This document shows positions 582-12,768 of a stretch of 12,768 bases of DNA, piece after piece (position 1 is the stretch's first letter; each line of letters begins with the position of its first letter). Made by a program: the position numbers and the translations under genes. The stretch spans positions 1-12,768 of the forward strand of contig JAJYGM010000105.1 of assembly GCA_021785095.1 (NCBI GenBank), written 5' to 3'. Below the pieces are notes generated by a model. It did no database searches and had not been told where the DNA came from. It was given only the letters and a program-made list of their open reading frames with translations. This stretch comes from Actinomycetes bacterium. Its GTDB lineage: Bacteria; Actinomycetota; Acidimicrobiia; Acidimicrobiales; Bog-793.

Positions 582-898
582 CGTTGCTCCTCCCAGTAGC
601 GCCGGGTCTGCGTCTCGTTCGCCTTCCATGCGTTCACGCCGATCAACTCGTCGTGGAGGTAGACCACGACGATGACCATACGAGCCGTTGAATATCCGAC
701 CAGCCGATCGGTCTTCCCGGACTTCGACGCGGGATCCGGCGAGTCCACGAGGGCGTCGTCGTCCGCGAAGGCTTCGTCAGCCCATGCGGGTTCGATGTCG
801 GCGTCGGCGTCGGCGTCGCCGGTGAGACGTATCCCACCGGCGCCGTCAACCCACGCGCGGGAGCACCGCGAAGTAGCCGCCGTCGAGCGGCCTGACAA
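578..898 (-). CDS. Putative toxin-like small protein paired with the RHH antitoxin; start codon unclear
   Basis: The conserved part reads DIEPAWADEAFADDD, then LVGYSTARMVIVVVY, then GVNAWKANETQTRRYWEE at the C-terminus. I recognise this layout from small actinobacterial proteins of about 85-95 aa encoded next to CopG-like antitoxins. It resembles BrnT-type toxins in size and partner, but I cannot prove the activity. Its TGA (578-580) overlaps the antitoxin ATG. The start is odd. Family members begin about ten residues before DIEPAW, but here the expected codon (830-832) reads ATA. The nearest in-frame conventional start is a TTG at 896-898, inside the 3' end of vapC and without a clear ribosome binding site. 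The listed extent uses that TTG (106 aa). A short GACGCC tandem tract codes for the DADADAD run. It may be a functional gene with a rare start, or a gene silenced by start-codon loss. Confidence 0.5.
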   Translation of the reverse strand: MSGRSTAATSRCSRAWVDGAGGIRLTGDADADADIEPAWADEAFADDDALVDSPDPASKSGKTDRLVGYSTARMVIVVVYLHDELIGVNAWKANETQTRRYWEEQR

Positions 899-1268
899 CG
901 TCGAAATGCCGGCGGTCCAGGCTGGCGATCGTGCGCGTCCGGTACCGCTCGGCCAGGACCACGATCGAGGCATCCGCCACGCCGATCGCCTGGTCCCGGT
1001 AGCTGGCGATGATCGCGCGAGCGCGGCGAAGCGCCTCTTCGTCGAACGCTGCCAAGTCCCATGCCCCGGCGGCCAGTTCGTCGAGCACGGCGAGCTCGTC
1101 GTCGACCCCGTGCCGAGTGGCGACGAGGTAGTCCAGCTCAGCCACCACATACGGCGAGACGACCAGGACGTCGGCTACGGCCAGCACCTCCGACACCGCG
1201 TCGTGGTCGGGCTCGGAAGCGTCGAAGAACGCCAGCAACGCGCTGGTGTCGACGATGACGGGAGGCAC
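846..1268 (-). CDS. vapC: VapC-type PIN-domain ribonuclease toxin
   Basis: A 140-aa protein, the usual length for VapC. The four acidic residues of the PIN metal site are present: D7 in VIVDTSALL, E44 in VVAELDYL, D99 in GVADASIV and D118 in IASLDRRHF. VapC toxins are Mg/Mn-dependent endoribonucleases that cut tRNA, or rRNA in some cases, to slow translation. The target here cannot be read from sequence. GTG start at 1268 with GAGGGG just upstream. It follows vapB by 3 bp, so the two are one operon. The listed TTG start of the next toxin-like gene overlaps its 3' end. Family is near certain. Confidence 0.9.
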   Translation of the reverse strand: MPPVIVDTSALLAFFDASEPDHDAVSEVLAVADVLVVSPYVVAELDYLVATRHGVDDELAVLDELAAGAWDLAAFDEEALRRARAIIASYRDQAIGVADASIVVLAERYRTRTIASLDRRHFDVVRPLDGGYFAVLPRVG

Positions 1269-1271
1269 CCC

Positions 1272-1487
1272 TCAGCGCTCCCCGAAGCCGGCAAGCAGCT
1301 CCTCGGCATCGCGGGCGATCGGCTTCCCGCTCGAGTACAGCCCGCCACGAGGACGCGGGCGAACACCGCCGACCGACACACGAATCGACTCGCGGATGAC
1401 CTCCGCCTCGGACACCCCGCGCTCGGCTGCAGCCCGCTTGACCGCCGCCTTCAGGTTCTCCGGCAGGTACAGCGTCGTCTTCTCCAC
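1272..1487 (-). CDS. vapB: VapB-type ribbon-helix-helix antitoxin
   Basis: A protein of 71 aa. Residues 3-35 (KTTLYLPENLKAAVKRAAA, then VSEAEVIRESI) form the strand and two helices of a ribbon-helix-helix DNA-binding domain. The rest (GGLYSSGKPIARDAEELLAGFG) matches the flexible toxin-binding tail of this VapB class. It should bind and inhibit the downstream VapC and repress the operon as a complex with it. GTG start at 1487; a nearby ATG at 1493 is out of frame. Three bases separate it from vapC. Palindromes just upstream (1496-1510) are the likely autoregulatory operator. Confidence 0.88.
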   Translation of the reverse strand: MEKTTLYLPENLKAAVKRAAAERGVSEAEVIRESIRVSVGGVRPRPRGGLYSSGKPIARDAEELLAGFGER

Positions 1488-1549: not shown

Positions 1550-1576
1550 CCTGTCGGTGCCGAGAACGTCATCCAC
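1550..1576 (+). repeat. Left terminal inverted repeat of the IS481-like element
   Basis: 27 bases matching the reverse complement of 2712-2738 at 23 positions. Mismatches fall at the sixth base and at three positions in the GTCA stretch near the inner end. Confidence 0.8.
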
Positions 1577-1629
1577 GGGCTTCGACCTGGACTTTGACGT
1601 CGGCAGGCTGCTACAGCGAGCATCCGGCG

Positions 1630-2706
1630 GTGACCCTCTCGTTCCTCTACCGAGCGTTCTGTCGCGTCCTTCAGCTGATCCGACTCATCGGCCGGAGCAA
1701 CGTTGACCTCGCCGTCCAGATCGTCATGCTTCGACACGAAGTCGCGGTGCTCCGCCGCCAGGTTCATCGGCCGATGCTGGAGCCTGCGGACCGGGCGGTG
1801 CTGGCGGGAGTCGCACGCCTGCTCCCCCGCCGACGGCTCGGGCGCTTCTTCGTCCAGCCAGAGACCCTGCTGCGCTGGCATCGGGACCTCGTCGCGAAGC
1901 ACTGGACCTACCCGCGGAGCCGACCCGGTCGGCCGGGCATCGCGAAGGGAACCACCGCGCTGGTCGTCCGGTTGGCAAAGGAGAACCCCGACTGGGGCTA
2001 CCGGCGCGTCCACGGCGAGATGGCGACCATGGGCATCGCCATCGCCCCTTCGAGCGTCTGGGCGATCTTGAAGCGCCACGGCGTCGAGCCGTCGCCACGC
2101 AGGTCGGGGCCGACTTGGGCGGAGTTCCTTTCTGCGCAGGCGAAGGGACTGATGGCGTGCGACTTCTTCCACGTCGACACCGTTCTCCTTCGCAGGCTCT
2201 ACGTGCTCGTGTTCATCCACCACGACACGCGGCTCGTGCGGATCGCCGGCGTGACCGCCAAGCCGGTCTCAGACTGGGTGACCCAGCAGGCCCGGAACCT
2301 CTCGATGGAGCTCGCGGATGGAGCGAGCGCCATCAAGTTCGTCGTCCGCGACCGCGACACCAAGTACACCGGGTCCTTCAACGCGGTCTTTGTTGCCGAT
2401 GGCGTCAGGGTCATCAGAACCCCAGTCAGGGCCCCTCGAGCGAACGCCATCTGCGAGCGCGTGATCGGCACCATCCGGCGCGAGTGCCTCGACCGGATGC
2501 TCATCCTCGGACGCCGCCATCTCGACGCCGTACTCGCCGAGTACGTCGCGCACTACAACACGCACCGGCTGCACCGCACTCTCGGCCAGCGTGCACCATC
2601 CACACTCGATGCGACTCCGGCGCCGATCGACGACATCGACCTCGGCAAGCTACGAAGAACCGACCGCTTGGGCGGCCTCATCCACGAGTACCGGATGGTC
2701 GCATGA
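1630..2706 (+). CDS. IS481/IS3-like transposase with rve integrase core
   Basis: A 358-aa protein from a GTG start. Residues 25-95 hold an N-terminal helical region with the typical LRHEVAVLRRQV and PADRAVLAGVARLLPR stretches and LLRWHRDLV. The HTH_21-like segment DWGYRRVHGE is at 121-130. The catalytic core follows: D178 in MACDFF, D241 in VVRDRDTKY and E276 in ANAICERVIG, with about 34 residues between the last two. The C-terminus carries the usual YNTHRLHRTLGQRAP. It should catalyse cut or copy transposition of the surrounding element. The listed GTG has no strong ribosome binding site, but upstream codons lie in or near the terminal repeat and look non-coding. The frame is intact, so the element may still be active. 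Confidence 0.9.
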   Translation: MTLSFLYRAFCRVLQLIRLIGRSNVDLAVQIVMLRHEVAVLRRQVHRPMLEPADRAVLAGVARLLPRRRLGRFFVQPETLLRWHRDLVAKHWTYPRSRPGRPGIAKGTTALVVRLAKENPDWGYRRVHGEMATMGIAIAPSSVWAILKRHGVEPSPRRSGPTWAEFLSAQAKGLMACDFFHVDTVLLRRLYVLVFIHHDTRLVRIAGVTAKPVSDWVTQQARNLSMELADGASAIKFVVRDRDTKYTGSFNAVFVADGVRVIRTPVRAPRANAICERVIGTIRRECLDRMLILGRRHLDAVLAEYVAHYNTHRLHRTLGQRAPSTLDATPAPIDDIDLGKLRRTDRLGGLIHEYRMVA

Positions 2707-2711
2707 ACTGG

Positions 2712-2738
2712 GTGGACGGGGTTCTCGGCACCCACAGG
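2712..2738 (-). repeat. Right terminal inverted repeat of the IS481-like element
   Basis: Inverted copy of 1550-1576 (23 of 27 identical), starting six bases after the transposase stop. The remnant gene frame begins immediately beyond it. Confidence 0.8.
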
Positions 2739-3003: not shown

Positions 3004-3070
3004 CGCGCGGGCGGCGACGAGTCCACGCGTCGCACCACGAAGATCGGCCTGCCTCTCGGCGACTCGTCGA

Positions 3071-3212
3071 GTAGGGCACTGCCCTACGCTGCGGTAGGGC
3101 CGCGTAGGGCAACGCGGGCAATCCGTGTGCCTTCGACGCAACATTTCGCGAATGCCCAGCGTGCGGGCGGTGCGGCGACGTGATGCCCTGCCCAGGGCTG
3201 CGTAGGGCAGGG
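3071..3212. repeat. Cluster of GTAGGGC repeats with two inverted repeats
   Basis: GTAGGGC occurs on the plus strand at 3071, 3094, 3104 and 3202. The inverse, GCCCTAC, is at 3081-3087. The first pair forms a 17-base palindrome with a single central base (3071-3087, arms GTAGGGCA and TGCCCTAC). A second inverted repeat has arms CCCTGCCC (3186-3193) and GGGCAGGG (3205-3212) around an 11-base loop. No gene is visible here. The cluster could bind a protein, form part of a replication or transfer origin, or mark recombination debris. Confidence 0.55.
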
Positions 3213-3221
3213 TGATCAACG

Positions 3222-3258
3222 GTCGATAATCGCGTCGATAAACCCTGTGGATAACCCC
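3222..3258. repeat. Three tandem iteron-like, DnaA-box-like repeats
   Basis: Units begin at 3222 (GTCGATAATCGC), 3234 (GTCGATAAACCCT) and 3247 (GTGGATAACCCC), so spacing is 12-13 bases. On the minus strand the third contains TTATCCACA (3246-3254), a perfect match to the standard DnaA box. The other two contain TTATCGAC, one base off over eight. Spaced DnaA boxes or iterons are typical of replication origins of plasmids and some integrative elements; that role is inferred from pattern only. No replication initiator gene is visible in the window. Confidence 0.5.
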
Positions 3259-3282
3259 GTGGGAGAGCACCGGAACGGCATG

Positions 3283-3306
3283 AAAGCCCAGGAAATTCTG
3301 GGCCTT
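3283..3306 (-). terminator. Candidate terminator of the hen1-pnkp operon
   Basis: A nine-pair stem (arms 3283-3291 and 3298-3306, including one G-U pair when read on the minus strand) encloses a six-base loop. On the minus strand the last three bases of the stem are T, followed by CAT. It lies about 130 bases downstream of the pnkp stop and is the best terminator shape between this operon and the IS. The T-run is short, so efficiency is uncertain. Between 3307 and 3434 I see no gene; a minus-strand GGTTCGAAT resembles a tRNA T-loop but has no matching stems. Confidence 0.45.
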
Positions 3307-3434
3307 CAGCCCGAAGATCCAAAACCTACGGTGGTGTTGAGTTGTCGTTATTCGAACCCCGGACAGTTGCGGGAGCAGATTGGCCAGCTTGTGCGGCATT
3401 TGTAACCAGATCGGGGGCCGCGACCGAAGACGAG

Positions 3435-5972
3435 CTATAGCCGTGGGTCGACCGGCTCGCTCTCCAAGGCGAGAACCCCGAACACGCACTCATGCACGCG
3501 GTAGAGCGGTTCTCCGGCGACGAACCGCTCCAGCGCCTCGATGCCAAGGGAGAACTCGCGGATGGCGAGGGAGCGCTTGTGCCCGAGGCCACGGGCGCGG
3601 AGACGCGACAGGTGTCGTTCGGCCGTGTACTCGGGGCCATAGATAATCCTGAGGTACTCCCGACCACGCACTTTGATGCCGGGCTGCGCCAAGCCCTTGG
3701 GGCCACGGTGAACGGCATCGACCGGCTTCACCACCATGCCCTCGCCTCCCCGGCTGGTCATCTCCTCCCACCACTCGGTTCCAGCCTCCCAGGAGGTCTT
3801 GTCTTCCACCTCCACGGTGATGGCTTTGGTGGCCCGGAACGTCGTCGGGTCGGCATCAGCGAGGCGCCCGAGCAGTTCCAGATGCCACGGGTGGTCCCGA
3901 AGGGCGTGGACCGATCCTTCCCCAGCTAGGACCTGGAATGGGGCGAGTTTGAGGTCGTCAACGGATTCCACCGGCCAGCAGTACTGGCCATATGCGGCAA
4001 CGAATCCATCCACCATGGCGGCACGCTGGCTCATTTCGGCGGTGAGATCGGCGACATCCACCCCCCGTGCCGCTACCGCTTGGACGACCGCGTCCTCGGC
4101 GCGCACGGCTCGAACCGCGGCGGCGCCCACGGCGGCGTACTGCTGACGCAACAGGTCCTCCGCCTTGGCGGACCACGGGAGAAGCTCGCAGTCGAGCACG
4201 AGCCAATCACTGGCGAGCTCCTCCCAGAGACCCGTCATGGATATTGCGGCGCGCACTTTGGCCAGAAAGGCGGCTTCCCTCTCCCCGTCGGCAAAGAAGG
4301 GGCGGCCGGTCCGGGTGAAGACGACACCGCCAGAGGGCGCGTCGATTCCGAAGCGTCGTGATGCGACCGAGGCGTCCCGGCACGCTACAACGACGGCTCG
4401 AGACCCCATGTGTTTCTCCTCGCATACCACGGTGCGAACGCCGACGGCCCGAAAGGCGGCAAAGGCCTCGTGGGGATGTTCGAGCAGCCCTTCCCGGTCC
4501 GAGGTCGCCGTAGGGGACATCGTCGGAGGGAGATAGACGAGCCATCGTGGGTCGACAGCGAACCGGCTCATGACCTCGAGGGCGGCGGCGGCGTTCTCCT
4601 CGCGGATCGTGACGGTGCCGGCCAAGCGGGCCTCGATTATCCGTTTGCCGAGGACGTCATCGAGGTCCAGGTCGGTAGGTTCGCGTGCCTCATCGGCTGG
4701 AGTCGACGCGAGCGGTCTGACTGGCTCGTAGTAGACCTCCTTCGCTGGCACAGAGACCAGCTCGCGTTCGGGGTAACGCAGGGCCGTGAGCTGGCCTCCG
4801 AAGACGCAGCCGGTATCGATGCAGATCGTCCGGTTCAGCCAGACGGCTTCGGGCACCGGCGTGTGGCCGTAGACGACCGTGGCCTCTCCTCGGTAGTCCT
4901 CCGCCCACGGGTAGCGCACCGGAAGGCCGTACTCGTCGGTCTCTCCCGTCGTGTCGCCGTAGAGCGCGAACGAGCGGACCGTCGCGGAGGCGCGTCCCTG
5001 CATGTTGGCCGGGAGCCCAGCGTGCGCTACGACGAGCCGTCCCTCATCGAGCACGAAATGGCTGATCAAACCATCGAGGAACGAGACGACCTGCTTGGAG
5101 AACTCCGGCGGTTCCGCTGCGAGCTGCTCGAGGCTCTGGGCGAGGCCATGACCAGTGGTGACGTTTCGGCCGTTCAGCGCTCGAAGCAGCTTCACCTCGT
5201 GGTTGCCGGGGATGCACAGCGCACTCCCCTCGCCAGTCATGCCCATGACCAACCGCAGCACAGCCGGCGTCGCCGGGCCTCGGTCGACCAGGTCGCCGAG
5301 GAAGACTGCCCGACGGCCATGGGGGTGACGGGCCGAGAGCCCGTCGGGGTCGATCTCGTAGCCGAGGGCGGTCAGCAGCGCCCTTAGCTCTTCGTGGCAT
5401 CCGTGGACGTCGCCGATGACGTCGAAGGGCCCGTGATCGTTCCTACGGTCGTTCCAGAGCGGCTCACGCTCGAAGGTGGCCGCGGCGATCTCCTCTTCGT
5501 CCTTCAGGTGGTAGACGCGGTGGAACCCTTCACGGCGCAATCCCCGTATCGAGCGACGAAGCTGGCTGCGCTGGTTGCGCAGCACGTGTGGGCCGAACTG
5601 GCGGTCAGAGCGCGATGCATTGCGAGCAGCGCACACGTCTTCTGGGACGTCGAGCACGATCGCCACGGCCAGAACGTTGTTTGCCTTGGCCAGATTGACG
5701 ACGGATCGCCGGGCTTCGGTCTGCACGTTGGTGGCGTCCACCACGGTCAGTCGCCCTGCTTCGAGGCGCTTGCCGGCGATGTAGTACAGCACGTCGAAGG
5801 CGGCATTCGTGGCCGTCTGGTCGTTCTCCTCGTCGGCGACCAGACCTCGACAGAAGTCGGAAGACAGGACCTCGGTCGGCAGGAAATGGCGGGTCGCGAA
5901 GGTCGACTTTCCTGAGCCGGTCACCCCTACGAGCGCCACGACGCAGAGCTCCGGGATCTTCAGGACAGTCAT
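3435..5972 (-). CDS. pnkp: Bacterial Pnkp: RNA 5'-kinase, 2',3'-phosphatase and ligase
   Basis: A three-domain RNA end-healing and sealing enzyme of 845 aa. Residues 1-170 are a P-loop polynucleotide kinase: Walker A GVTGSGKST (16-24), SSDFCR with D39 as likely general base, and VVDATNVQ. It phosphorylates 5'-OH ends. Residues 183-410 are a calcineurin-like phosphatase: GDVHGC (187-192), GDLVDRGP (226-233), GNHE (256-259), AHAG (316-319) and YGHT (368-371). It removes 3' or 2',3'-cyclic phosphate. From about 480 on there is a nucleotidyltransferase ligase: EEKHMGSR with the adenylated lysine K520, EGMVVKP (744-750) and GIKVRG (765-770). In studied relatives the ligase works only together with Hen1. 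I chose ATG at 5972, which overlaps the hen1 TGA (ATGA), over an in-frame upstream extension to 6077. All motifs look intact. Confidence 0.96.
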   Translation of the reverse strand: MTVLKIPELCVVALVGVTGSGKSTFATRHFLPTEVLSSDFCRGLVADEENDQTATNAAFDVLYYIAGKRLEAGRLTVVDATNVQTEARRSVVNLAKANNVLAVAIVLDVPEDVCAARNASRSDRQFGPHVLRNQRSQLRRSIRGLRREGFHRVYHLKDEEEIAAATFEREPLWNDRRNDHGPFDVIGDVHGCHEELRALLTALGYEIDPDGLSARHPHGRRAVFLGDLVDRGPATPAVLRLVMGMTGEGSALCIPGNHEVKLLRALNGRNVTTGHGLAQSLEQLAAEPPEFSKQVVSFLDGLISHFVLDEGRLVVAHAGLPANMQGRASATVRSFALYGDTTGETDEYGLPVRYPWAEDYRGEATVVYGHTPVPEAVWLNRTICIDTGCVFGGQLTALRYPERELVSVPAKEVYYEPVRPLASTPADEAREPTDLDLDDVLGKRIIEARLAGTVTIREENAAAALEVMSRFAVDPRWLVYLPPTMSPTATSDREGLLEHPHEAFAAFRAVGVRTVVCEEKHMGSRAVVVACRDASVASRRFGIDAPSGGVVFTRTGRPFFADGEREAAFLAKVRAAISMTGLWEELASDWLVLDCELLPWSAKAEDLLRQQYAAVGAAAVRAVRAEDAVVQAVAARGVDVADLTAEMSQRAAMVDGFVAAYGQYCWPVESVDDLKLAPFQVLAGEGSVHALRDHPWHLELLGRLADADPTTFRATKAITVEVEDKTSWEAGTEWWEEMTSRGGEGMVVKPVDAVHRGPKGLAQPGIKVRGREYLRIIYGPEYTAERHLSRLRARGLGHKRSLAIREFSLGIEALERFVAGEPLYRVHECVFGVLALESEPVDPRL

Positions 5973-7366
5973 CTGCTGAACACCGCCATCTGGGTGGGAG
6001 GCCCGACAGTGGCATCCTCGGGCCCAATGCCGGAGAGGGACAGCGCATACCCGTGCCGGGTCCCTATCTGTTCGCACCAGTTGGCGAACTCCGCCCTAGT
6101 CCACTCGAAACGATGGTCGCGATGACGGAATGCGCCGGCCGGCAATGACTCGAAGCGGACGTTGTACTCGACGTTGGGCGTGGTGACGATCACCGTCGAC
6201 GGTCGGGCGTGGGCGAAAACCGCGCGCTCGAAGCTCCCCAGCCGAGAAGGATCGAGGTGTTCGATCACCTCGACGACTGCGGCCGCGTCGAAGCCGACCA
6301 GGCGGGCGTCGCGATAGGTAAGTGACCCCTGGACGAGATCGACCCTGGCACGTTGGCTCGGCGCCATGGTGTCGAGGTGCAGGCGCTTGGCAGCGACCTC
6401 GAGAATGCGAAACGAGACGTCTATTCCCACGACCTGTTCGATGCCCTGCACACGGAGCAGTTCGCCCACCAGCTTTCCCTCGCCACAGCCGAGGTCCAGC
6501 ACTCGGCGGGCGCCGCTGGCGCGAACGGTTCGGAGGACGGCGTCGAGTCGTTGTTGGTTCAGGTTGATCGGCTTTTCGACCGCCTGCTCCTGAGCGTCGT
6601 ACCGGGCCTCTGCCTCGTCGGGGTCTTCCAGGTCCTCCTCCATGAGCCGACTCAGGGCCTCCCGGGTGAGCTGACGGTCATGGCGTAGGTAGCGGCGCGT
6701 GATGAGGTCCCGCTCTGGGTGTCCGGAGAGCCAGTCGCCGCCTCTTCGCAGGAGCTTGTCGATCTCGTCTTGCCCTACCCAGTAGTGCTTGTCATCGTCG
6801 AGCACGGGCAGAAGAACGAAGAGGTGCTCAAGGAGCCCTTTCAGGGTCACGGCTGCCCTCAAGGTGAGGTCTACGTATTGGCTGTCCCCCCACCCCGGGA
6901 ACCGCGGGTCGAGCGGGATGGTCTGTGCTGTGACCTCGTAGCCAAGAGGCTCGAAGAGCCGGAGCGCGACCTCCTCGCCGCCACGGCAGGGCGTCACTGG
7001 CAGACGGACCTCCAACGAGATGGCCTGTCCGACCAGCTCGGGGCGCTCCTTGCTCCTCCCTGCCATCGCGGTCGAGAACACCTTGCCCAGGACCACAGAC
7101 ATGAAGGACGAGGCCGCATAGGGGCGGTCGTTGACGTACTGGCCAAGAGAGAAGTCATTGCCTCGCGGGCCACGGCGACGGACCAGTCCAACGGGGTCGA
7201 CGTCGACGACGACGGCCGCGGTGCAGCGCTCGTTGTTCGCCTCGGGGTAGACGACGTGGGCTCGACCGAAGCCGAACTCGGCGCAGTGGTGGGCGGAGGG
7301 GTTCTTGTGCAGCAAGTACCCGAGATCGGTGGCCGGGCGGTGGTCGGTTGAGATCGTGAGCAGCAT
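5969..7366 (-). CDS. hen1: Bacterial Hen1: RNA 3'-terminal 2'-O-methyltransferase and Pnkp partner
   Basis: A 465-aa protein in two halves. The N-terminal half opens LLTISTDHRPATDLGYLLHKNP and contains GQYVNDRPYAASSFMSVV; in relatives it binds Pnkp and activates its ligase. The C-terminal half (about 265-465) is an SAM-dependent methyltransferase: LDLGCGEG (290-297), then EVIEH with E366, E369 and H370, and H418 in RHRDHRFEW, the metal-binding set. It methylates the 2'-OH of the 3'-terminal nucleotide of the broken RNA before sealing, so the ribotoxin cannot cut again. From the ATG at 7366 the length and catalytic positions agree with what I recall for the Clostridium thermocellum enzyme. An in-frame extension to 7492 gives a proline-rich leader without family match. 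It is the first gene of the operon. Confidence 0.95.
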   Translation of the reverse strand: MLLTISTDHRPATDLGYLLHKNPSAHHCAEFGFGRAHVVYPEANNERCTAAVVVDVDPVGLVRRRGPRGNDFSLGQYVNDRPYAASSFMSVVLGKVFSTAMAGRSKERPELVGQAISLEVRLPVTPCRGGEEVALRLFEPLGYEVTAQTIPLDPRFPGWGDSQYVDLTLRAAVTLKGLLEHLFVLLPVLDDDKHYWVGQDEIDKLLRRGGDWLSGHPERDLITRRYLRHDRQLTREALSRLMEEDLEDPDEAEARYDAQEQAVEKPINLNQQRLDAVLRTVRASGARRVLDLGCGEGKLVGELLRVQGIEQVVGIDVSFRILEVAAKRLHLDTMAPSQRARVDLVQGSLTYRDARLVGFDAAAVVEVIEHLDPSRLGSFERAVFAHARPSTVIVTTPNVEYNVRFESLPAGAFRHRDHRFEWTRAEFANWCEQIGTRHGYALSLSGIGPEDATVGPPTQMAVFSR

Positions 7367-7530
7367 GAATGGGGGCCTTGGCGTCGGGAGTGGCGCGGGT
7401 GCGCTGGTAGGACATCTTCGCATCGGCCCGGGCCGGACCAAAAAATCTTCGAAAACCCCTTGACTTCGCGGCCCGATCGAGGTCTCCTCCATGGCTCGAG
7501 GCGCTTGCTCGGCCGGCAGGGCACGGCATC
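7367..7530. promoter_or_regulatory. Divergent intergenic region between hen1 and the mobilisation genes
   Basis: These 164 bases must hold the start signals for both divergent operons. Visible are a perfect 12-base palindrome CGGCCCGGGCCG (7424-7435), a short A-rich tract from 7440, and ATCTTCG repeated at 7414-7420 and 7445-7451 (31 bases apart, about three helical turns). A TTGACT at 7460-7465 could be a -35 element for the rightward operon, but no good -10 follows at normal spacing. No convincing sigma-70 promoter faces hen1. A shared regulator is possible, but none is identified. Confidence 0.4.
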
Positions 7531-8463
7531 ATGTTTCAAAACCCCACGTCAGCGCACGATCGATCGCGTGCGCCTTTACGGCCGACCCCTGTTCACCCCC
7601 CGCTTGACTCGATCCGGGGCACTCCGGGGGCAGTACCAACCGGCACGCTCCGGCCGGTCGACCGGCACCTGCTCACGCTGCTCCGCGAGCACGAGGCGCT
7701 CACGACCAGCCAACTCGTCCGGCTCACCGGGATGCCCGAGCGGACCGTTCAGCACCGCCTCGGCGTCCTCTACAGCGCCGGACTGGTCAACCGCCACCGA
7801 CCGCAAGCGGCCATCGGCACCTGCCCGTACCACGTCTGGCTCACCCCGTTCGGGGCCGCTGCGGTCGGTACCGAGCCACCGCGGGCCTGGAGCGAGGACC
7901 TGTCCGGCCTGCGGACGGGTGCAGCTCTGAGCGACCTCTGGCTCGGGCTCTTGGACCACGGTCCCGCCATCGGGCTGGTGGTGACCGCCTGGCACCGCTT
8001 CCGGCCCGGCGTCAGGTACGTGGATCCGCGCACGGGTGAGGATGGGAACCTCTCGGCTGATGCCGTACTCACGGCGCGGCTGGGCGCCGGTGCGGAGATC
8101 GAGGCGCTGCTCTTCGCCAGCGTCGATCGCATTCCGGCACCGCGCCTGGCATCGGTGGTCGCCCGCTGGGCGGACTACCTTGCTGCGGCTTCGGCCAGGG
8201 TCCCCCGCGTAGTGCTGGTGCTGACGCAGAGGACGGGTCACCGCGCCGCCATCTTCAACGCAATTCGACACGTGGGGGACACCCCCACCATCCGCAAGGC
8301 CGACCAGCTGGCGATGAAGACGGCCGTCCCCCGCCTGGCAGTCGGCCTCGTCGGGAGCAGCGCACCTACCCTCGCCACCGAGGCGGTGTGGCGCATCCCA
8401 GCGAACGAGGATGACCATCGCTTGGTCGAGGTGCTGACCGGCGCCGCGGTGGTGGGCCGATGA
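7531..8463 (+). CDS. Replication-Relaxation family protein, degenerate copy
   Basis: A 310-aa protein. Residues 40-110 form a winged helix-turn-helix: VDRHLLTLLREHEALTTSQLVRLTGMPERTVQHRLGVLYSAGLV, then the wing YHVWLTPFG. This layout and the rest of the protein match the Replication-Relaxation family of plasmids and integrative elements, thought to act with relaxases or replication proteins. In the C-terminal half the acidic core is weakened relative to its neighbour at 9023: D177 and D199 remain, but the expected Glu two residues before D199 is A197 (FASVDR), and the following Lys is missing. The ATG at 7531 is used although the first 40 residues look poorly conserved. Its TGA overlaps the next ATG. 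DNA binding without nuclease activity is a reasonable guess. Confidence 0.75.
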   Translation: MFQNPTSAHDRSRAPLRPTPVHPPLDSIRGTPGAVPTGTLRPVDRHLLTLLREHEALTTSQLVRLTGMPERTVQHRLGVLYSAGLVNRHRPQAAIGTCPYHVWLTPFGAAAVGTEPPRAWSEDLSGLRTGAALSDLWLGLLDHGPAIGLVVTAWHRFRPGVRYVDPRTGEDGNLSADAVLTARLGAGAEIEALLFASVDRIPAPRLASVVARWADYLAAASARVPRVVLVLTQRTGHRAAIFNAIRHVGDTPTIRKADQLAMKTAVPRLAVGLVGSSAPTLATEAVWRIPANEDDHRLVEVLTGAAVVGR

Positions 8464-9026
8464 CGCAAGCCAGGACCACGTCATGTCGTCACCAGGCGCT
8501 CGATCACCACCCGCAAGACCAGCCCCAGACCAGCCCCCACCATCCGCAAGCCCAAGCCCCCGACGTCAAGACCCGTGCTCCTCGGAGCGACTGGGCCGAC
8601 TTCCAGCATCCGCGGTCGGCCGTGCCCGACCCGGGTGAGCGGGCGTGCGCGTGCCATCAGCAAGATCGCGAGCATGTGTGCTGCGAGCACTGCGGTGCGG
8701 CCGAAGTGCGGCATGGCGACGTGTGCCCTGGCATCAGTGTGCCGCCAGCGGGTGCCCTGCGACCACTCGCCCGTGCGCTGCTGTCGGTGGCGGTGGACGT
8801 GCACGCCGAACGACGTGAGGTTCGCCGTGTCACGTGTCCGGCGCACGAGGCGACCTTGCGGATGGAAAAGAAGGGGCTCCGTCACCCCGTCCGTTCCCCC
8901 CTCGTTTCAGGGGTCCGTTCTCCCGCCACTCCTGAGGTGACCCCCTCTAGCGACGCGTCACCGCACGTCGGGGCCGCTCCACCCCCGCCACTGGTGAACT
9001 CCGACTGTATTGGTGATTGTGCATGA
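8460..9026 (+). CDS. Cys- and His-rich protein of unknown function
   Basis: A 188-aa open frame joined to both neighbours by ATGA: its ATG (8460) overlaps the upstream TGA (8461-8463), and its TGA (9024-9026) overlaps the downstream ATG (9023). Matching overlaps at both ends strongly support a real, translationally coupled gene. Residues 1-60 are rich in His, Gln and Pro and likely disordered. The middle holds clustered cysteines and histidines: C63, C65, H66, C74, C75, C78, C89 and C126, which suggests a zinc-binding module around CCEHC. The segment ALRPLARALLSVAVDVHAE looks helical. The tail is Pro-rich. I recognise no family. Open frames also run through this stretch elsewhere (8575-8940 plus, 8481-8885 minus) but lack such junctions. 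Confidence 0.6.
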   Translation: MTQARTTSCRHQALDHHPQDQPQTSPHHPQAQAPDVKTRAPRSDWADFQHPRSAVPDPGERACACHQQDREHVCCEHCGAAEVRHGDVCPGISVPPAGALRPLARALLSVAVDVHAERREVRRVTCPAHEATLRMEKKGLRHPVRSPLVSGVRSPATPEVTPSSDASPHVGAAPPPPLVNSDCIGDCA

Positions 9027-9937
9027 CTGCTTCGTCTTCCCGCCGGCGACGGAGGATCACGGACCGGTTGGTCTTCGACGTGGCGTCGTCGTTGACCGAT
9101 CGCGATCGACACATCCTCCGTCTCCTTCGTTGGCATCGAGTGCTGACCACGTCCCAGATCCACGTGATGTTCTTCAGCGATCTCAACACCGCCCAGCACC
9201 GGATGACCCGCCTTGACGAGCTGCGTCTCGTGGAACGCTTCCGACCCCTGCGCGCCGGCCGGGAGGCCGAGTACCACTACGTGCTCGACGTCCTCGGTGC
9301 CTACGTGGTGGCGTCCATGGCCAACCAGGACCCCGACCGGGAGGTCAAGATGCGATGGCGCACCGACTGGGCGCTGTCGATCGCCACGAGCCAGCGCCTC
9401 GCCCACACCGTCGGGGCCAACGAATTCTTTGTCCACCTCGTGGCTGCGGCGCGCACCAATTCCGACGCAGAGCTGTCCACGTGGTGGGGAGAGCGCTACT
9501 GCAAGGACCGCCTCGGCGAGGTGGTCCGTCCCGACGGGCTTGGGGTTTGGCGTGAGGGCGACGCCACCGTGGTGTTCTGCCTCGAGTACGACCGGGGTAG
9601 CGAGCAGCTCTCCCGGCTCGAGAAGAAGGCCGGCGACTACGCCCGGCTCGAGGCCGCCTGGGGCGCCGCCTTCTGGCTGTTGGTGGTCGTGCCGGGTCCG
9701 CGGCGCGAGGTCGGCGCACGTTCGGCCCTGTCCGGCCAGGGCCTGGCGGTCGCCACGACCACCCAGCCATTGGCCGTTCGGCCGACAGACGCCATCTGGG
9801 CGCCCCTCGGTGCCGACGGGACCCGGGTGCGCCTGGCCGAGCTGGCCAGCTGGCCACGGCTGGCGGAATCGACGGCGCGCCTGGCCCGGGCCGCCCGCTA
9901 CCGGGACGACGACAACCACTACGAGGAGGCCAGCTGA
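9023..9937 (+). CDS. Replication-Relaxation family protein
   Basis: A 304-aa protein. A basic N-terminus (SSSRRRRR) precedes a winged helix-turn-helix at about 24-90: LTDRDRHILRLLRWHRVLTTSQIHVMFF, RMTRLDELRLVERF and the wing EYHYVLDVLGAY. The family motif TVGANEFFVHL is at 129-139. The C-terminal half carries RPDG with D171, then CLEYDRG with E188 and D190, then K201/K202, an order compatible with a PD-(D/E)XK-like core. Family members occur on plasmids and integrative elements and are linked to conjugative relaxation and replication. The ATG at 9023 is chosen because it overlaps the upstream stop; a TTG two codons earlier is also in frame. The serine recombinase start follows 68 bases after its stop. 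Confidence 0.85.
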   Translation: MTASSSRRRRRITDRLVFDVASSLTDRDRHILRLLRWHRVLTTSQIHVMFFSDLNTAQHRMTRLDELRLVERFRPLRAGREAEYHYVLDVLGAYVVASMANQDPDREVKMRWRTDWALSIATSQRLAHTVGANEFFVHLVAAARTNSDAELSTWWGERYCKDRLGEVVRPDGLGVWREGDATVVFCLEYDRGSEQLSRLEKKAGDYARLEAAWGAAFWLLVVVPGPRREVGARSALSGQGLAVATTTQPLAVRPTDAIWAPLGADGTRVRLAELASWPRLAESTARLARAARYRDDDNHYEEAS

Positions 9938-10005
9938 CGACGAAGGACTTGCACCCCGAGGAAGAACGAGCCCACATGGGGGGATCAACGAAGGAGCGTG
10001 ATGCG

Positions 10006-11004
10006 ATGCGCTGTGTGACCTACCTGCGGGTGTCCACCCGCGAGCAGGCCGAGAAGGGCGAAGGCGAGGAAGGCTTCTCGATCCCCGCCCAACGCGAGGC
10101 CTGCACCCGCCACATCCGAGACGCCGGTTGGGACCTCGTCGACGAGTACGTCGACCGCGGCGAGTCGGCGCGATCGGCCGACCGTCCAGCCCTGAAGGAG
10201 ATGCTGGCCCGCATCGCCGAAGAGCGCGACGTCGACGCCGTCGTGGTGCACAAGATCGATCGGCTCGCTCGCAACATGGAAGACCACGTCGCTATCCGGG
10301 CGCTGCTCCGGCGCCGGAGCGTGGCGCTCGTATCGGTGACCGAGAACGTGGAGGAGACCGCCTCGGGACGGTTGGTCGAAGGCATCCACGCCTTGATGGC
10401 CGAGTTCTACTCATCCAACCTGGCGAACGAGATCCGAAAGGGCCTCACCCAGAAGGCGAAAATGGGCGGCTTCCCCCACGGCGCCCCGCTCGGCTACGGG
10501 AACCTGCGCGAAGTGATCGCCGGCCGCCAGGTGGCCCGCATCGTCCCCGATGCAGAACGCGCCCCGCTCATTACGCTCGCCTTCGAGCACTACGCGACTG
10601 GCGAGTGGACCCTTCAACGCTTGGCCGGAGAGCTGGCGCACCGAGGCCTCACCAACCGAGCTCGGCGCGACCGGACGTCCATGGCCATCACCTGGCAGGG
10701 CCTGGCCAAGATCCTTGCCAACCCCGTCTACGTCGGCATCGTCGAGTGGAACGGCGTCCAGCACCCCGGCTCCCACGAACCGCTCGTCGACCCCGATACC
10801 TTCCGCCGGGTCCAAGAGCTGCTGGCCGCCCGCGCGGCGCGGGGGACCCGCGAGCGGAAGCACCCGCACTACCTGAAGGGTCTGCTGCATTGCGGCGTTT
10901 GCGGCCGGCGCCTTTCGATCCAGCGCTCCAAGGGCCGCTACACCTACTTCTTCTGCTTGGGCCAGAAGAACGACCCGACGGGCACCTGCCGGGAGCGCTA
11001 CTAA
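10006..11004 (+). pseudogene. Large serine recombinase, 5' part, split by IS630 insertion
   Basis: Starts at ATG 10006 with GGAG nine bases upstream. Residues 3-150 are the resolvase catalytic domain: YLRVSTREQ with nucleophile S10 and R8, then HKIDRLARN and the long helix MAEFYSSNLANEIRKGL. Residues 155-275 form the recombinase domain (GAPLGYG, NPVYVGIVEWNG). A zinc ribbon follows, with C296, C299, C317 and C328. The frame then meets a TAA (11002-11004) supplied by the first bases of the inserted element, giving 332 aa. The intact protein would integrate and excise its element at attachment sites. The fragment keeps the catalytic domain and zinc ribbon but loses the coiled-coil region. It continues at 12139-12702. 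Upstream in-frame starts (9949, 9976) are possible but have no good ribosome binding site. Confidence 0.9.
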
Positions 11005-11042: not shown

Positions 11043-12029
11043 CTAACCGGTGATGTAGCTGAGGTCCGGCGAGCGGAAGAACCCGCGGACGATGTCCTTG
11101 GACGACTGCAGCCGTGCCACGGCCTTTTCGATGACGACCTTCATGTCGTCGACCGAGCGAGCAGCCGCCCGACCCACCCGGTCGTGCTTGACGTTCTTCC
11201 AGACCCACTCGTCGGGGTTGAGTTCGGGAGAGTACGGCGGGAGGTAGAAGAGCTCGAGACGTCCCTTGGTCGAGGCGACGAACTGGCGGGTCTTGGCGGC
11301 CTTGTGAGCGGAATGCCCGTCGACGATCAGGTAGATCTTGCCCCGCACGTCGTGGAGGAGCTTCTTCAGGTACTCGATGAAGGTTCCTGCGTTCACCCGG
11401 CCGGCGAAGCAAAAGTGCAGCTTGCCCTTGGCCGAGACCGCGGAGATCATGTTGAGCGAGGCCCGCCGACCCGTCCCCCGCACGACTGGGGTCTTGCCCC
11501 GCTCTGCCCAGGTCGTCCCCGAATGGTGGTCGGTGCGCACCCCTGCCTCGTCGCAGAAAAAGATGGTCGCCCCCGCCCTCTTCGCCTTGGCGGCGATCTT
11601 GGGGTACTCCTCTTCCTTCCAGCGTCTGACCGCTTCTGGGTCCTGTTCGTAGGCCCGTACCAGCGGGCGCTGGGGAGACAGCCCCATGCGCTGCAGCAGC
11701 CGGCCCACCGCCGACTTGGACATCACGACGCCGTAACGCTCCTTGATCAGCCCGGCGACCATGTCGCGCGTCCACAGCGCGAACTCGAAACGGAGCTGGC
11801 GGGGGTCAGTGCCGACGATCGTCCGGCGGAGCCCGGCGACCTGGCGAGGGGAGAGCTTGGGAACGGCTCCCTTGGCCTTGCCGACTGGGAAGGACTTCTC
11901 GCCCATCTTCTGGTAGGCGGACCACCAGCCATAGACGGTCGAGCGCCCTACACCGAAGGCTGCCGCGACATCTTCGACGCCGAGTCCCCGCTCCAACAGG
12001 CGCACCACCTGGGCACGCTTCTCCTCCAA
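11043..12029 (-). CDS. IS630-family DDE transposase
   Basis: A 328-aa protein. Residues 5-40 are a helix-turn-helix (VRLLERGLGVEDVAAAFGVGRSTVYGWW), and a second winged-helix segment includes SKSAVGRLLQRMGLSPQRP at 104-122. The catalytic triad fits D160 in IFFCDEAGVRTDH, D237 in YLIVDGHSAHK and E274 in YSPELNPDEWVWKNVK. It should move its element by cut-and-paste into TA sites. No ATG or GTG is in frame at the right place; TTG at 12029 is the only plausible conventional start, and translation might begin a little upstream at a rarer codon. The frame is intact. A good sigma-70-like promoter lies within and beside the right end. Confidence 0.92.
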   Translation of the reverse strand: MEEKRAQVVRLLERGLGVEDVAAAFGVGRSTVYGWWSAYQKMGEKSFPVGKAKGAVPKLSPRQVAGLRRTIVGTDPRQLRFEFALWTRDMVAGLIKERYGVVMSKSAVGRLLQRMGLSPQRPLVRAYEQDPEAVRRWKEEEYPKIAAKAKRAGATIFFCDEAGVRTDHHSGTTWAERGKTPVVRGTGRRASLNMISAVSAKGKLHFCFAGRVNAGTFIEYLKKLLHDVRGKIYLIVDGHSAHKAAKTRQFVASTKGRLELFYLPPYSPELNPDEWVWKNVKHDRVGRAAARSVDDMKVVIEKAVARLQSSKDIVRGFFRSPDLSYITG

Positions 12030-12138: not shown

Positions 12139-12702
12139 TATGTCGCAGCCGAGGACCTCGAAGCCCAGGTCGAAGAGCTGTACCAGCGCATCCAGCTCCC
12201 GGCTTCGTGGGCCGACCGACTACGTGAGGAGATGGCAGCCGAGATCGTCGAGCGCCAATGCGCCGACGCCGCCCAGCGCGAACTGCTCACCCGCCGCCTC
12301 GCCATGGCGGAAGCCCAGCGGCACAAGCTCCTCGACGCCTACTACGCCGGAGCGATCGATGTGCCGACCCTGAAGACCGAGCAGGCCCGCATCGGTGCCG
12401 ACATCGACGCTGCCAAGGACCGGCTCGCAGACCTCGACGCCAACCTCGACGAATGGCAGGAGATCCTGGAGCTGGCTGCCACCCTCGCCACGCGCTGCGG
12501 CGACGCCTACCGCAAGGCCAACGACCGGACCCGCAAACAGTTCAACGCGGCGGTGTTCGAGCACCTGGACGTGAAAGGCGGCCGGCTCTGCCATGAGGAG
12601 TACCGGCCGCCCTTCGACGGGGTCTTCACCGTGTCCGAGTTCGAATACGGAACACGAGTAAGGCCATCACAGAAGGGTCTGAGCAGCCCGGACACGACGT
12701 GA
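12139..12702 (+). pseudogene. Large serine recombinase, 3' part
   Basis: Continues the frame broken at 10998-11000: TAT GTC GCA GCC from the right TA copy gives YVAAEDLEAQVEELYQRI, which is where the recombinase should resume after its zinc ribbon. The 187 residues are largely helical and charged, with likely coiled-coil stretches (MAAEIVERQCADAAQRELLT, AEAQRHKLLDAYYAG and DIDAAKDRLADLDANLDEW) that in large serine integrases control synapsis and direction. It ends FEYGTRVRPSQKGLSSPDTT at TGA 12700-12702. It has no start of its own; an ATG at 12232 could in principle yield 156 aa. With the 5' part the intact protein would be about 518 aa. The remaining 66 bases hold only a short near-palindrome, TGCGGGCCCCGCA. 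Confidence 0.88.
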
Positions 12703-12768
12703 TCGGGTGCTCACCCACGCGATAAGCGACGTCAGCCCACAGCTGCGGGCCCCGCACCTGGGACGTCG

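Follow-up and report, generated by a model that had tools for sequence, protein, structure and literature searches.

A Pnkp-Hen1 RNA repair operon as probable cargo of an integrated serine recombinase element with a tRNA target

Genes and features of the locus

The pnkp-hen1 operon for RNA repair was analysed in its surroundings on contig JAJYGM010000105.1 (assembly GCA_021785095.1) of an Actinomycetes bacterium assigned to the Acidimicrobiales; the whole stretch of 12,768 nucleotides is called the window below. The operon shares the window with two relaxation genes, a large serine recombinase (SR) and two candidate attachment half-sites of that recombinase, and it is the position of pnkp and hen1 between these half-sites that concerns us here.

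The pnkp gene (3435..5972, minus strand) encodes a polynucleotide kinase-phosphatase-ligase of 845 residues and hen1 (5969..7366, minus strand) a 3'-terminal RNA ribose 2'-O-methyltransferase of 465 residues. The proteins match TIGR04075 with 1403.8 bits (cut-off 750) and TIGR04074 with 702.4 bits (cut-off 340), respectively, in both cases over the full length of the model. Among solved relatives, 4drf, 3ty8, 4j6o and 4gp6 together extend over all three parts of Pnkp (kinase, phosphatase and ligase), and 4dqz and 3jwh over both halves of Hen1. When compared with these relatives, the Pnkp motifs (P-loop GSGKST, phosphatase GDLVDRGP, ligase EKHMGSR and EGMVVKP) and the Hen1 motifs (DLGCG, EVIEH and HRDHRFEW) are conserved or nearly so. 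The original prediction, made from the letters of the window, had described an intact operon, and this holds: both open reading frames (ORFs) are complete, lie on the same strand and overlap by 4 bp (ATGA at 5969-5972). In view of the biochemistry known for Pnkp-Hen1 (available portion of PMC4411300), the two enzymes would repair RNA that ribotoxins or anticodon nucleases have cleaved, and add a 2'-O-methyl group to it.

RR1, a Replic_Relax family gene with a helix-turn-helix (7531..8463, plus strand; PF13814, 44.6 bits, cut-off 25.3), starts 164 bp upstream of hen1 in the opposite direction. It is followed by an ORF without a family match in the Pfam scan (8460..9026, plus strand), whose C-terminal half has a counterpart before RR2 at locus L084 (58% over 97 residues), then by RR2, a second Replic_Relax gene (9017..9937, plus strand; PF13814, 152.6 bits, same cut-off), and by the SR gene. 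Both relaxation genes thus face away from pnkp-hen1, the divergent arrangement that had been predicted. RR2 occurs in 17 of 395 genomes sampled evenly from a larger group, all of the class of G001, an Acidimicrobiaceae metagenome-assembled genome (MAG). In viral contigs its pattern matched twice, neither match being a relative.

The module had also been called one of mobilisation. Here the Replic_Relax genes are present, and RR2 matches phrog_9381, annotated as 'replication initiation by nicking', but Replic_Relax is the only such family found: no relaxase, coupling or secretion family was detected when 20 ORFs of the window were compared with Pfam, nor was an FtsK/TraB-type gene. A structure model of RR2 (predicted local distance difference test, pLDDT, 82.8) comprises a winged helix and a C-terminal domain. 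In the fold search the list was filled by winged-helix rows; since PaqCI alone reaches the C-terminal domain (three chains, best E 0.005), the weak resemblance of the predicted domain to a restriction nuclease is a lead and not a finding.

The SR gene, on the plus strand, comes in two parts. The N-terminal part (10006..11004, within ORF 9949-11004) carries Resolvase, Recombinase and zinc ribbon domains. The C-terminal part (12139..12702) is recognised by alignment with the homologue at locus L118 and by phrog_95 (residues 452-559). The two parts correspond to residues 1-332 and 332-504 of the L118 homologue, and between them lies a transposase of the IS630 family (11043..12029, minus strand; DDE_3 and HTH_33), the evidence for its insertion there including the sequence at both ends of the insertion sequence (IS). 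The large serine recombinase of the original prediction is therefore there in its domains, but not as an intact gene. Because the gene is split by IS630, this copy of the element has probably lost its own mobility.

Attachment half-sites and the site of integration

The right attachment half, P, together with its core GT occupies 12637..12659 (plus strand), GAGTTCGAATACGGAACACGA at 12637-12657 being at the same time the last conserved codons of the SR gene. The right-half pattern matches the window once (0.00 matches expected) and gave 0 matches in viral contigs. The left half, P' (3331..3405, plus strand), has its core GT at 3331-3332, the conserved word GTTGTCGTTATTCGAACCC at 3341-3359, and encodes, when read in the SR direction, the tail VVLSCRYSNPGQLREQIGQLVRHL followed by a stop. 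P' is an imperfect inverted copy of P, with which it shares the short core. Imperfect inverted repeats are the usual form of the attachment halves of serine integrases.

The DNA to the left of pnkp resembles the DNA to the left of SR at two other loci, L118 and L122 (75% between window positions 3060-3376 and L122). The word GTTGTCGTTATTCGAACCC is exact in the window and in L118, while the two copies in L122 have one and two changes; it always runs in the SR direction and lies upstream of SR. The two-base core, the position of which was picked after the sequences had been inspected, is the same at both ends in the window (GT/GT), in L118 (GA/GA) and in L122 when the inner P' is taken (GT/GT).

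Outside P', the left flank (3194..3330) matches the DNA directly downstream of tRNA-Ala(cgc) in genome G431 and the flank of an element in genome G286. In the blastn comparison with G431, window positions 3194-3341 are 78% identical and the match reaches the 3' end of the tRNA gene, the last 11 bases of the stretch being part of the half-site, which resembles the tRNA end. The tRNA-Ala(cgc) site of G431 is unoccupied, and SR has no match in that genome. Behind this flank G286 has, in order, a left half, a FitA-like/PIN pair, a second left half, remains of RR2, SR, the right half and tRNA-Ala(cgc). From the flank shared with G431 and G286, it follows that the element of the window sits at the same kind of site. 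The region 3060-3330 had been considered as a replication origin on account of a DnaA-box-like word and repeats, and was rejected since it matches the tRNA-Ala(cgc) flank. The contig was also considered as a circle; the window has no exact terminal overlap.

Both half-sites and the flank match to the unoccupied site place the ends of the element at about 3331 and 12659. We regard it as probable that this tract is an integrated element of a tRNA-targeting family of large serine recombinases, with pnkp-hen1 between its half-sites as cargo. Features that can be read off the DNA directly enter this interpretation: the domains, both half-sites, the tRNA adjacency of the sister elements, an unoccupied site that matches on the left and the split SR gene.

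A recombinase family at tRNA 3' ends

The SR family is present in 27 of the 395 genomes sampled. The places compared were 43 distinct ones and L210, a recombinase end, hence 44 in total; five with less than 430 bp beyond the match were excluded from the count on the downstream side. An antisense tRNA gene lies within 350 bp after SR at 37 of the 39 places with room, all in one bacterial class, the two others being L168 and L218. Before SR, none of the 43 places with room has an antisense tRNA within the same distance. Among the excluded places L199 also has a tRNA, and one offers 126 bp of room. The tRNA genes concerned are those for Gly, Ala, Val, Met, Glu, Ser, Arg and Lys. At five loci the conserved end of the SR gene (GAGTTCGAATACGGAACACGA or close variants) directly abuts the 3' end of the antisense tRNA, which is Gly-tcc in L167 and is found among Gly-ccc, Ala-ggc, Gly-gcc and Ala-cgc in L118, L120, L121 and L122.

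This arrangement is mirrored in the proteins. In 101 of the 120 listed SR homologues the anchor residues are present and the tail is 8 residues or longer; these tails were compared with translations of 60 tRNA genes, a score of at least 35 (a threshold of our choosing) counting as a match. By this measure 87 of the 101 anchored tails match antisense translations of tRNA, while the sense strand gives 18 matches and shuffled tails give 2 of 101. At L118 the recombinase frame (6875-8470) continues into the antisense tRNA, and protein P0121 behaves likewise. In P0121, SR is joined to dCTP-deaminase-type domains that resemble the gene beyond the tRNA in L118 (8501-9070, PF22769); fusions of this sort are likely to give rise to odd annotations. 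The window's own tail after FEYGTR, VRPSQKGLSS, bears a faint likeness to the tail VRSSRLG.. that is common to P0147, P0164, P0199 and P0224 and has no match to antisense tRNA. That common tail could reflect either another target or another free-form tail.

If P and P' are the halves of one attachment site, the SR gene of the free circle should read across their junction into the tail encoded by P'. This was predicted beforehand, and one homologue, P0140, ends FEHGTRVEVRCRYSNLGQLRDRLVQLLDVTPS; R and CRYSN are four residues apart in it, the same spacing that a junction of the window's halves would give. The SR gene thus appears to span its own attachment site, a free read-through form being represented in the sequences by this one protein.

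These observations can be combined into a working scheme. The element would be ordered P', pnkp and hen1 facing left, RR1, the ORF, RR2, SR facing right, and P. In the free circle, the SR gene would cross the P/P' junction and end in the CRYSN...L tail. Upon integration at a tRNA 3' end this tail would be cut off and its codons replaced by antisense-tRNA codons, while the tRNA itself would stay whole. The slot between P' and the relaxation genes would hold cargo that varies from element to element, pnkp-hen1 in the window. In its general form the scheme describes a sizeable, overlooked clade of serine integrases that targets many tRNA 3' ends, has its gene spanning attP, swaps a C-terminal helix for an antisense-tRNA tail on integration, possibly as a switch between the free and the integrated state, and keeps an exchangeable cargo slot behind the left half, occupied here by a repair kit for damage of the tRNA type. 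To this wider proposal we give an even chance.

Several observations weigh against the interpretation and have to be set beside it. The main gap is the right flank (12660..12768), which is not a tRNA and has no convincing match, so that the comparison with the unoccupied site of G431 is matched on its left side only; a tandem neighbour, a deletion or an assembly join are possible there. The SR gene is not intact, owing to the IS630 insertion between 11004 and 12139. Among the SR loci compared, the window, L118 and L122 alone gave a match to P'; it was not found in L120 and L121, where the weak match is P itself, or in more distant loci. L122 has two copies of P', and the core of the outer one is TT as opposed to GT at the right end, so that one of the four end pairs disagrees. 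The tail of the free form is seen in only one of the 120 listed SR homologues (P0140), and a search with its tail region returned no second example among 6 matches. Neither pnkp nor hen1 occurs in any of the 31 other element-type loci (SR loci, P' loci and the unoccupied site). Lastly, the P' word taken by itself is not rare: it matches 11 times in 8 of the 395 genomes, as compared to 5 matches for a reversed control pattern.

The latter point bears on a different explanation, namely that P' is an unrelated dispersed repeat and the left end has been misplaced. Similar words do lie away from SR in some genomes, the background amounting to about 5 per 395 genomes. However, 6 of the 11 matches fall in G367, G286 and G240, all of which have close recombinases, and the position and direction of P', the coded tail that it has in common with P0140 and the unoccupied site all agree with each other. 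We consider a misplaced left end very improbable.

RNA repair genes as probable cargo and their relation to known systems

Within its ends the element contains pnkp, hen1, RR1, one ORF, RR2, the split SR and IS630, pnkp-hen1 being the sole recognised cargo. The operon occupies the slot where G286 has a toxin-antitoxin pair. The matching slot of L118 holds a metallo-beta-lactamase-fold protein, a luciferase-like monooxygenase, an alpha/beta hydrolase and IS genes. In L208 and L217 a CLC chloride channel and a TetR-like regulator lie between the left half and tRNA-Gly(gcc); L217 retains only the end of SR, and in L208 no SR was found. At L122 (4822-7463), a FitA-like/PIN pair is flanked by two left half-sites inside one element. 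Such double half-sites may reflect a stepwise capture of cargo.

It can be asked whether the operon ever moved with SR, or whether it was inserted later, through IS activity or illegitimate recombination, when the element had already integrated. Insertion sequences are indeed nearby, the SR gene is split, and only one element with pnkp-hen1 is known among those examined. On the other hand, the inverted-repeat listing has no pair that brackets the operon (IS ends were not searched further), and the slot behind P' holds other complete units in related tracts. A later insertion is possible, though we favour an entry of pnkp-hen1 together with the element. For the window copy, which lies between both half-sites, RNA repair as cargo is accordingly upheld, and more firmly than the original prediction could know; what turned out weaker is the module itself, which is broken and does not recur with pnkp-hen1.

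The lack of recurrence emerges from 89 other pnkp loci, 80 from a genome scan and 9 further ones, two of these coming from the same genomes as L002 and L007, with flanks of up to 10 kb and often less. A tblastn search found RR1 or RR2 at none of the 89 (a very divergent Replic_Relax could escape it), and SR only at L017 and L020, as distant relatives of 30-33% identity. With relaxation genes at 0 of 89 loci and two distant recombinases, a general spread of RNA repair by the window's module, as the original prediction would have it, is unsupported. Nor is the presence of a tRNA a general rule, only 4 of 80 loci having one within 1 kb of pnkp.

The operon is equally without a fixed place in the chromosome. 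The prediction would have been contradicted by one common core location in relatives; none is apparent in 15 pnkp loci of the same class. In these loci, several of them on contigs shorter than 10 kb, just one immediate neighbour of the operon recurs, an RlaP-type gene in L002 and L003. Other matches between loci lie at varying distance: ribbon-helix-helix (RHH) genes in L002 and L008 and, with labels assigned by eye, amidase-like genes in L003 and L007 and ABC-type ATPases in L006, L008 and L126. The RlaP gene of L002 (12542-13324; PF10127, RNA repair pathway DNA polymerase beta family) comes immediately after pnkp, and L003 has a short RlaP piece (12532-12723) that stops some 30 bp short of an antisense tRNA-Val(tac). 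In L128 the operon is neighboured by a tyrosine integrase and a small HTH_17 protein, in L214 by an rve-type transposase.

Whole or nearly whole Pnkp is found in 8 of the 395 class genomes (10 match, 2 of them over the phosphatase part only) and in 4 of 42 genomes of one family. In one genome scan, the eight best relatives of the window Pnkp (68-75%) all came from MAGs, seven labelled Acidimicrobi- and one Actinomycetes (G007), the latter belonging to the family of G367 in the same class; the best relative overall is that of G416 (79%). When 92 Pnkp proteins were arranged with FastTree, the window fell within a clade of its own class that comprises 12 rows (support 100), and for this reason recent transfer, if any, would have taken place within the class. 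Four other class genomes fall in two other places of the tree, one of which is a join of two long branches, of a kind flagged as often false.

These data also bear on whether pnkp-hen1 might be a resident chromosomal operon beside which a recombinase module happened to insert. The placement of the window Pnkp in its own-class clade would suit a resident, as would the absence of the module from the other pnkp loci examined. What speaks against it is that the left half-site lies beyond pnkp, joined to a tRNA-Ala flank that is unoccupied in G431 and borders another element in G286, and that pnkp has no fixed location in relatives. We judge a resident operon quite unlikely.

Pnkp relatives (at least 80% of the length and at least 42% identity) were found in 16 of 72,556 plasmid records, a count that leaves out two rows at 24% and in which H6 is a record of chromosome size. 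Eight plasmid regions were examined; two are on plasmids typed as conjugative, and 4 contain toxin or antitoxin genes. In L136 (Skermanella rosea plasmid pSR-1), hen1-pnkp is accompanied at a distance of a few genes by another RNA repair unit, made up of an rtcB-family gene and prfH, and in L223 (Asticcacaulis plasmid pASDW145_1) a RelE/RelB pair and a tyrosine recombinase precede hen1-pnkp, which is followed by two nucleotidyltransferase genes. No Pnkp was found in viral contigs, and of the 145 phage records with a match none covers 80% of the protein. Taken together, the movement of pnkp-hen1 seems to be local and sporadic and to use more than one vehicle, the element of the window being one of them.

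To the left of the element lie a VapBC-like pair (846..1487, minus strand), consisting of a PIN gene (846-1268; PF01850, 57.3 bits) and an RHH gene (1272-1487; PF01402, 28.4 bits), and an rve-type (IS481/IS3-like) insertion sequence (1550..2738, plus strand) with a transposase gene at 1630-2706 (PF13683, 54.9 bits; NF033577 below its cut-off) and inverted arms at 1550-1576 and 2712-2738. The two insertion sequences of the original prediction do flank the operon, but the rve-type one is outside the element while IS630 is inside the SR gene. Of its two toxin-antitoxin units, the PIN/RHH pair is supported; the other is not, the candidate at 255-581 being RHH/NikA-like below the cut-off (20.2 versus 27 bits) and the neighbouring ORF 578-1150 having no Pfam family match.

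This neighbourhood could be taken for a defence island, in which RNA repair, toxin-antitoxin genes and insertion sequences have gathered. The VapBC-like pair would fit, and so would the toxin or antitoxin genes near pnkp-hen1 in half of the eight plasmid regions. Yet the pair lies outside the ends of the element, and PADLOC (2023 library, 10 window proteins) reported no complete anti-phage system: Pnkp had no match, and the only hits were weak single ones of Hen1 to a methyltransferase (mad2) and of RR1 to a helix-turn-helix protein (Csa3). A defence island therefore appears unlikely.

What goes furthest beyond the original claim is the recombinase family itself, which takes many tRNA ends with a gene apparently spanning its attachment site. 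It runs counter to the usual division of labour, by which tRNA genes are left to tyrosine integrases and serine integrases go elsewhere (accessible section of PMC4383910); in Mycobacterium, likewise, tyrosine systems are described at tRNAs and serine systems elsewhere (excerpt of PMC10654092). The main text of a large survey of large serine recombinases does not contain the word tRNA (PMC10083194), and in searches of an open-licence library for serine integrases at tRNA genes and for Pnkp-Hen1 on mobile DNA we recognised no description of this tRNA-targeting SR family or of pnkp-hen1 as its cargo. The tail swap raises the question of whether it controls the direction of recombination, and serine integrases that use tRNA ends might serve as laboratory tools. 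The element, for which both ends and an unoccupied site can be named, is a specific vehicle to which the patchy occurrence of RNA repair in one bacterial class could be ascribed.

With respect to its cargo, the window has the same proteins, operon and motifs as the bacterial Pnkp-Hen1 system (TIGR04075/TIGR04074; 4drf, 3jwh), which according to the part of PMC4411300 at hand is known from about 250 species, invariably as a single operon. It differs from the known systems in that the operon lies inside an integrated serine recombinase element. RNA repair genes on extrachromosomal DNA are also known from the Pnkp1-Rnl-Hen1 cluster of Borgs (consulted portion of PMC11208441), where, in contrast, they encode a three-protein repair complex and reside on another kind of element.

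With respect to the vehicle, the closest parallels are the rare serine recombinase cases among actinomycete integrative and conjugative elements (AICEs) at tRNA-Leu of Mycobacterium and phage phiRSM1 at tRNA-Ser, AICEs as such being given as absent from Acidimicrobidae (all from the accessible text of PMC3218068). They have in common with the window a serine recombinase integrating at tRNA genes; unlike them, as far as that text describes them, the SR family of the window stands beside eight kinds of tRNA, and its ORFs include no recognised FtsK/TraB-type gene. Integrative and mobilizable elements (IMEs) are similar in being small integrated elements with cargo, sometimes including toxin-antitoxin genes, whereas the element of the window has no recognised relaxase. 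IMEs with serine recombinases are described as disrupting dispensable genes, and the tRNA targets listed belong to tyrosine integrases (available part of PMC5704250).

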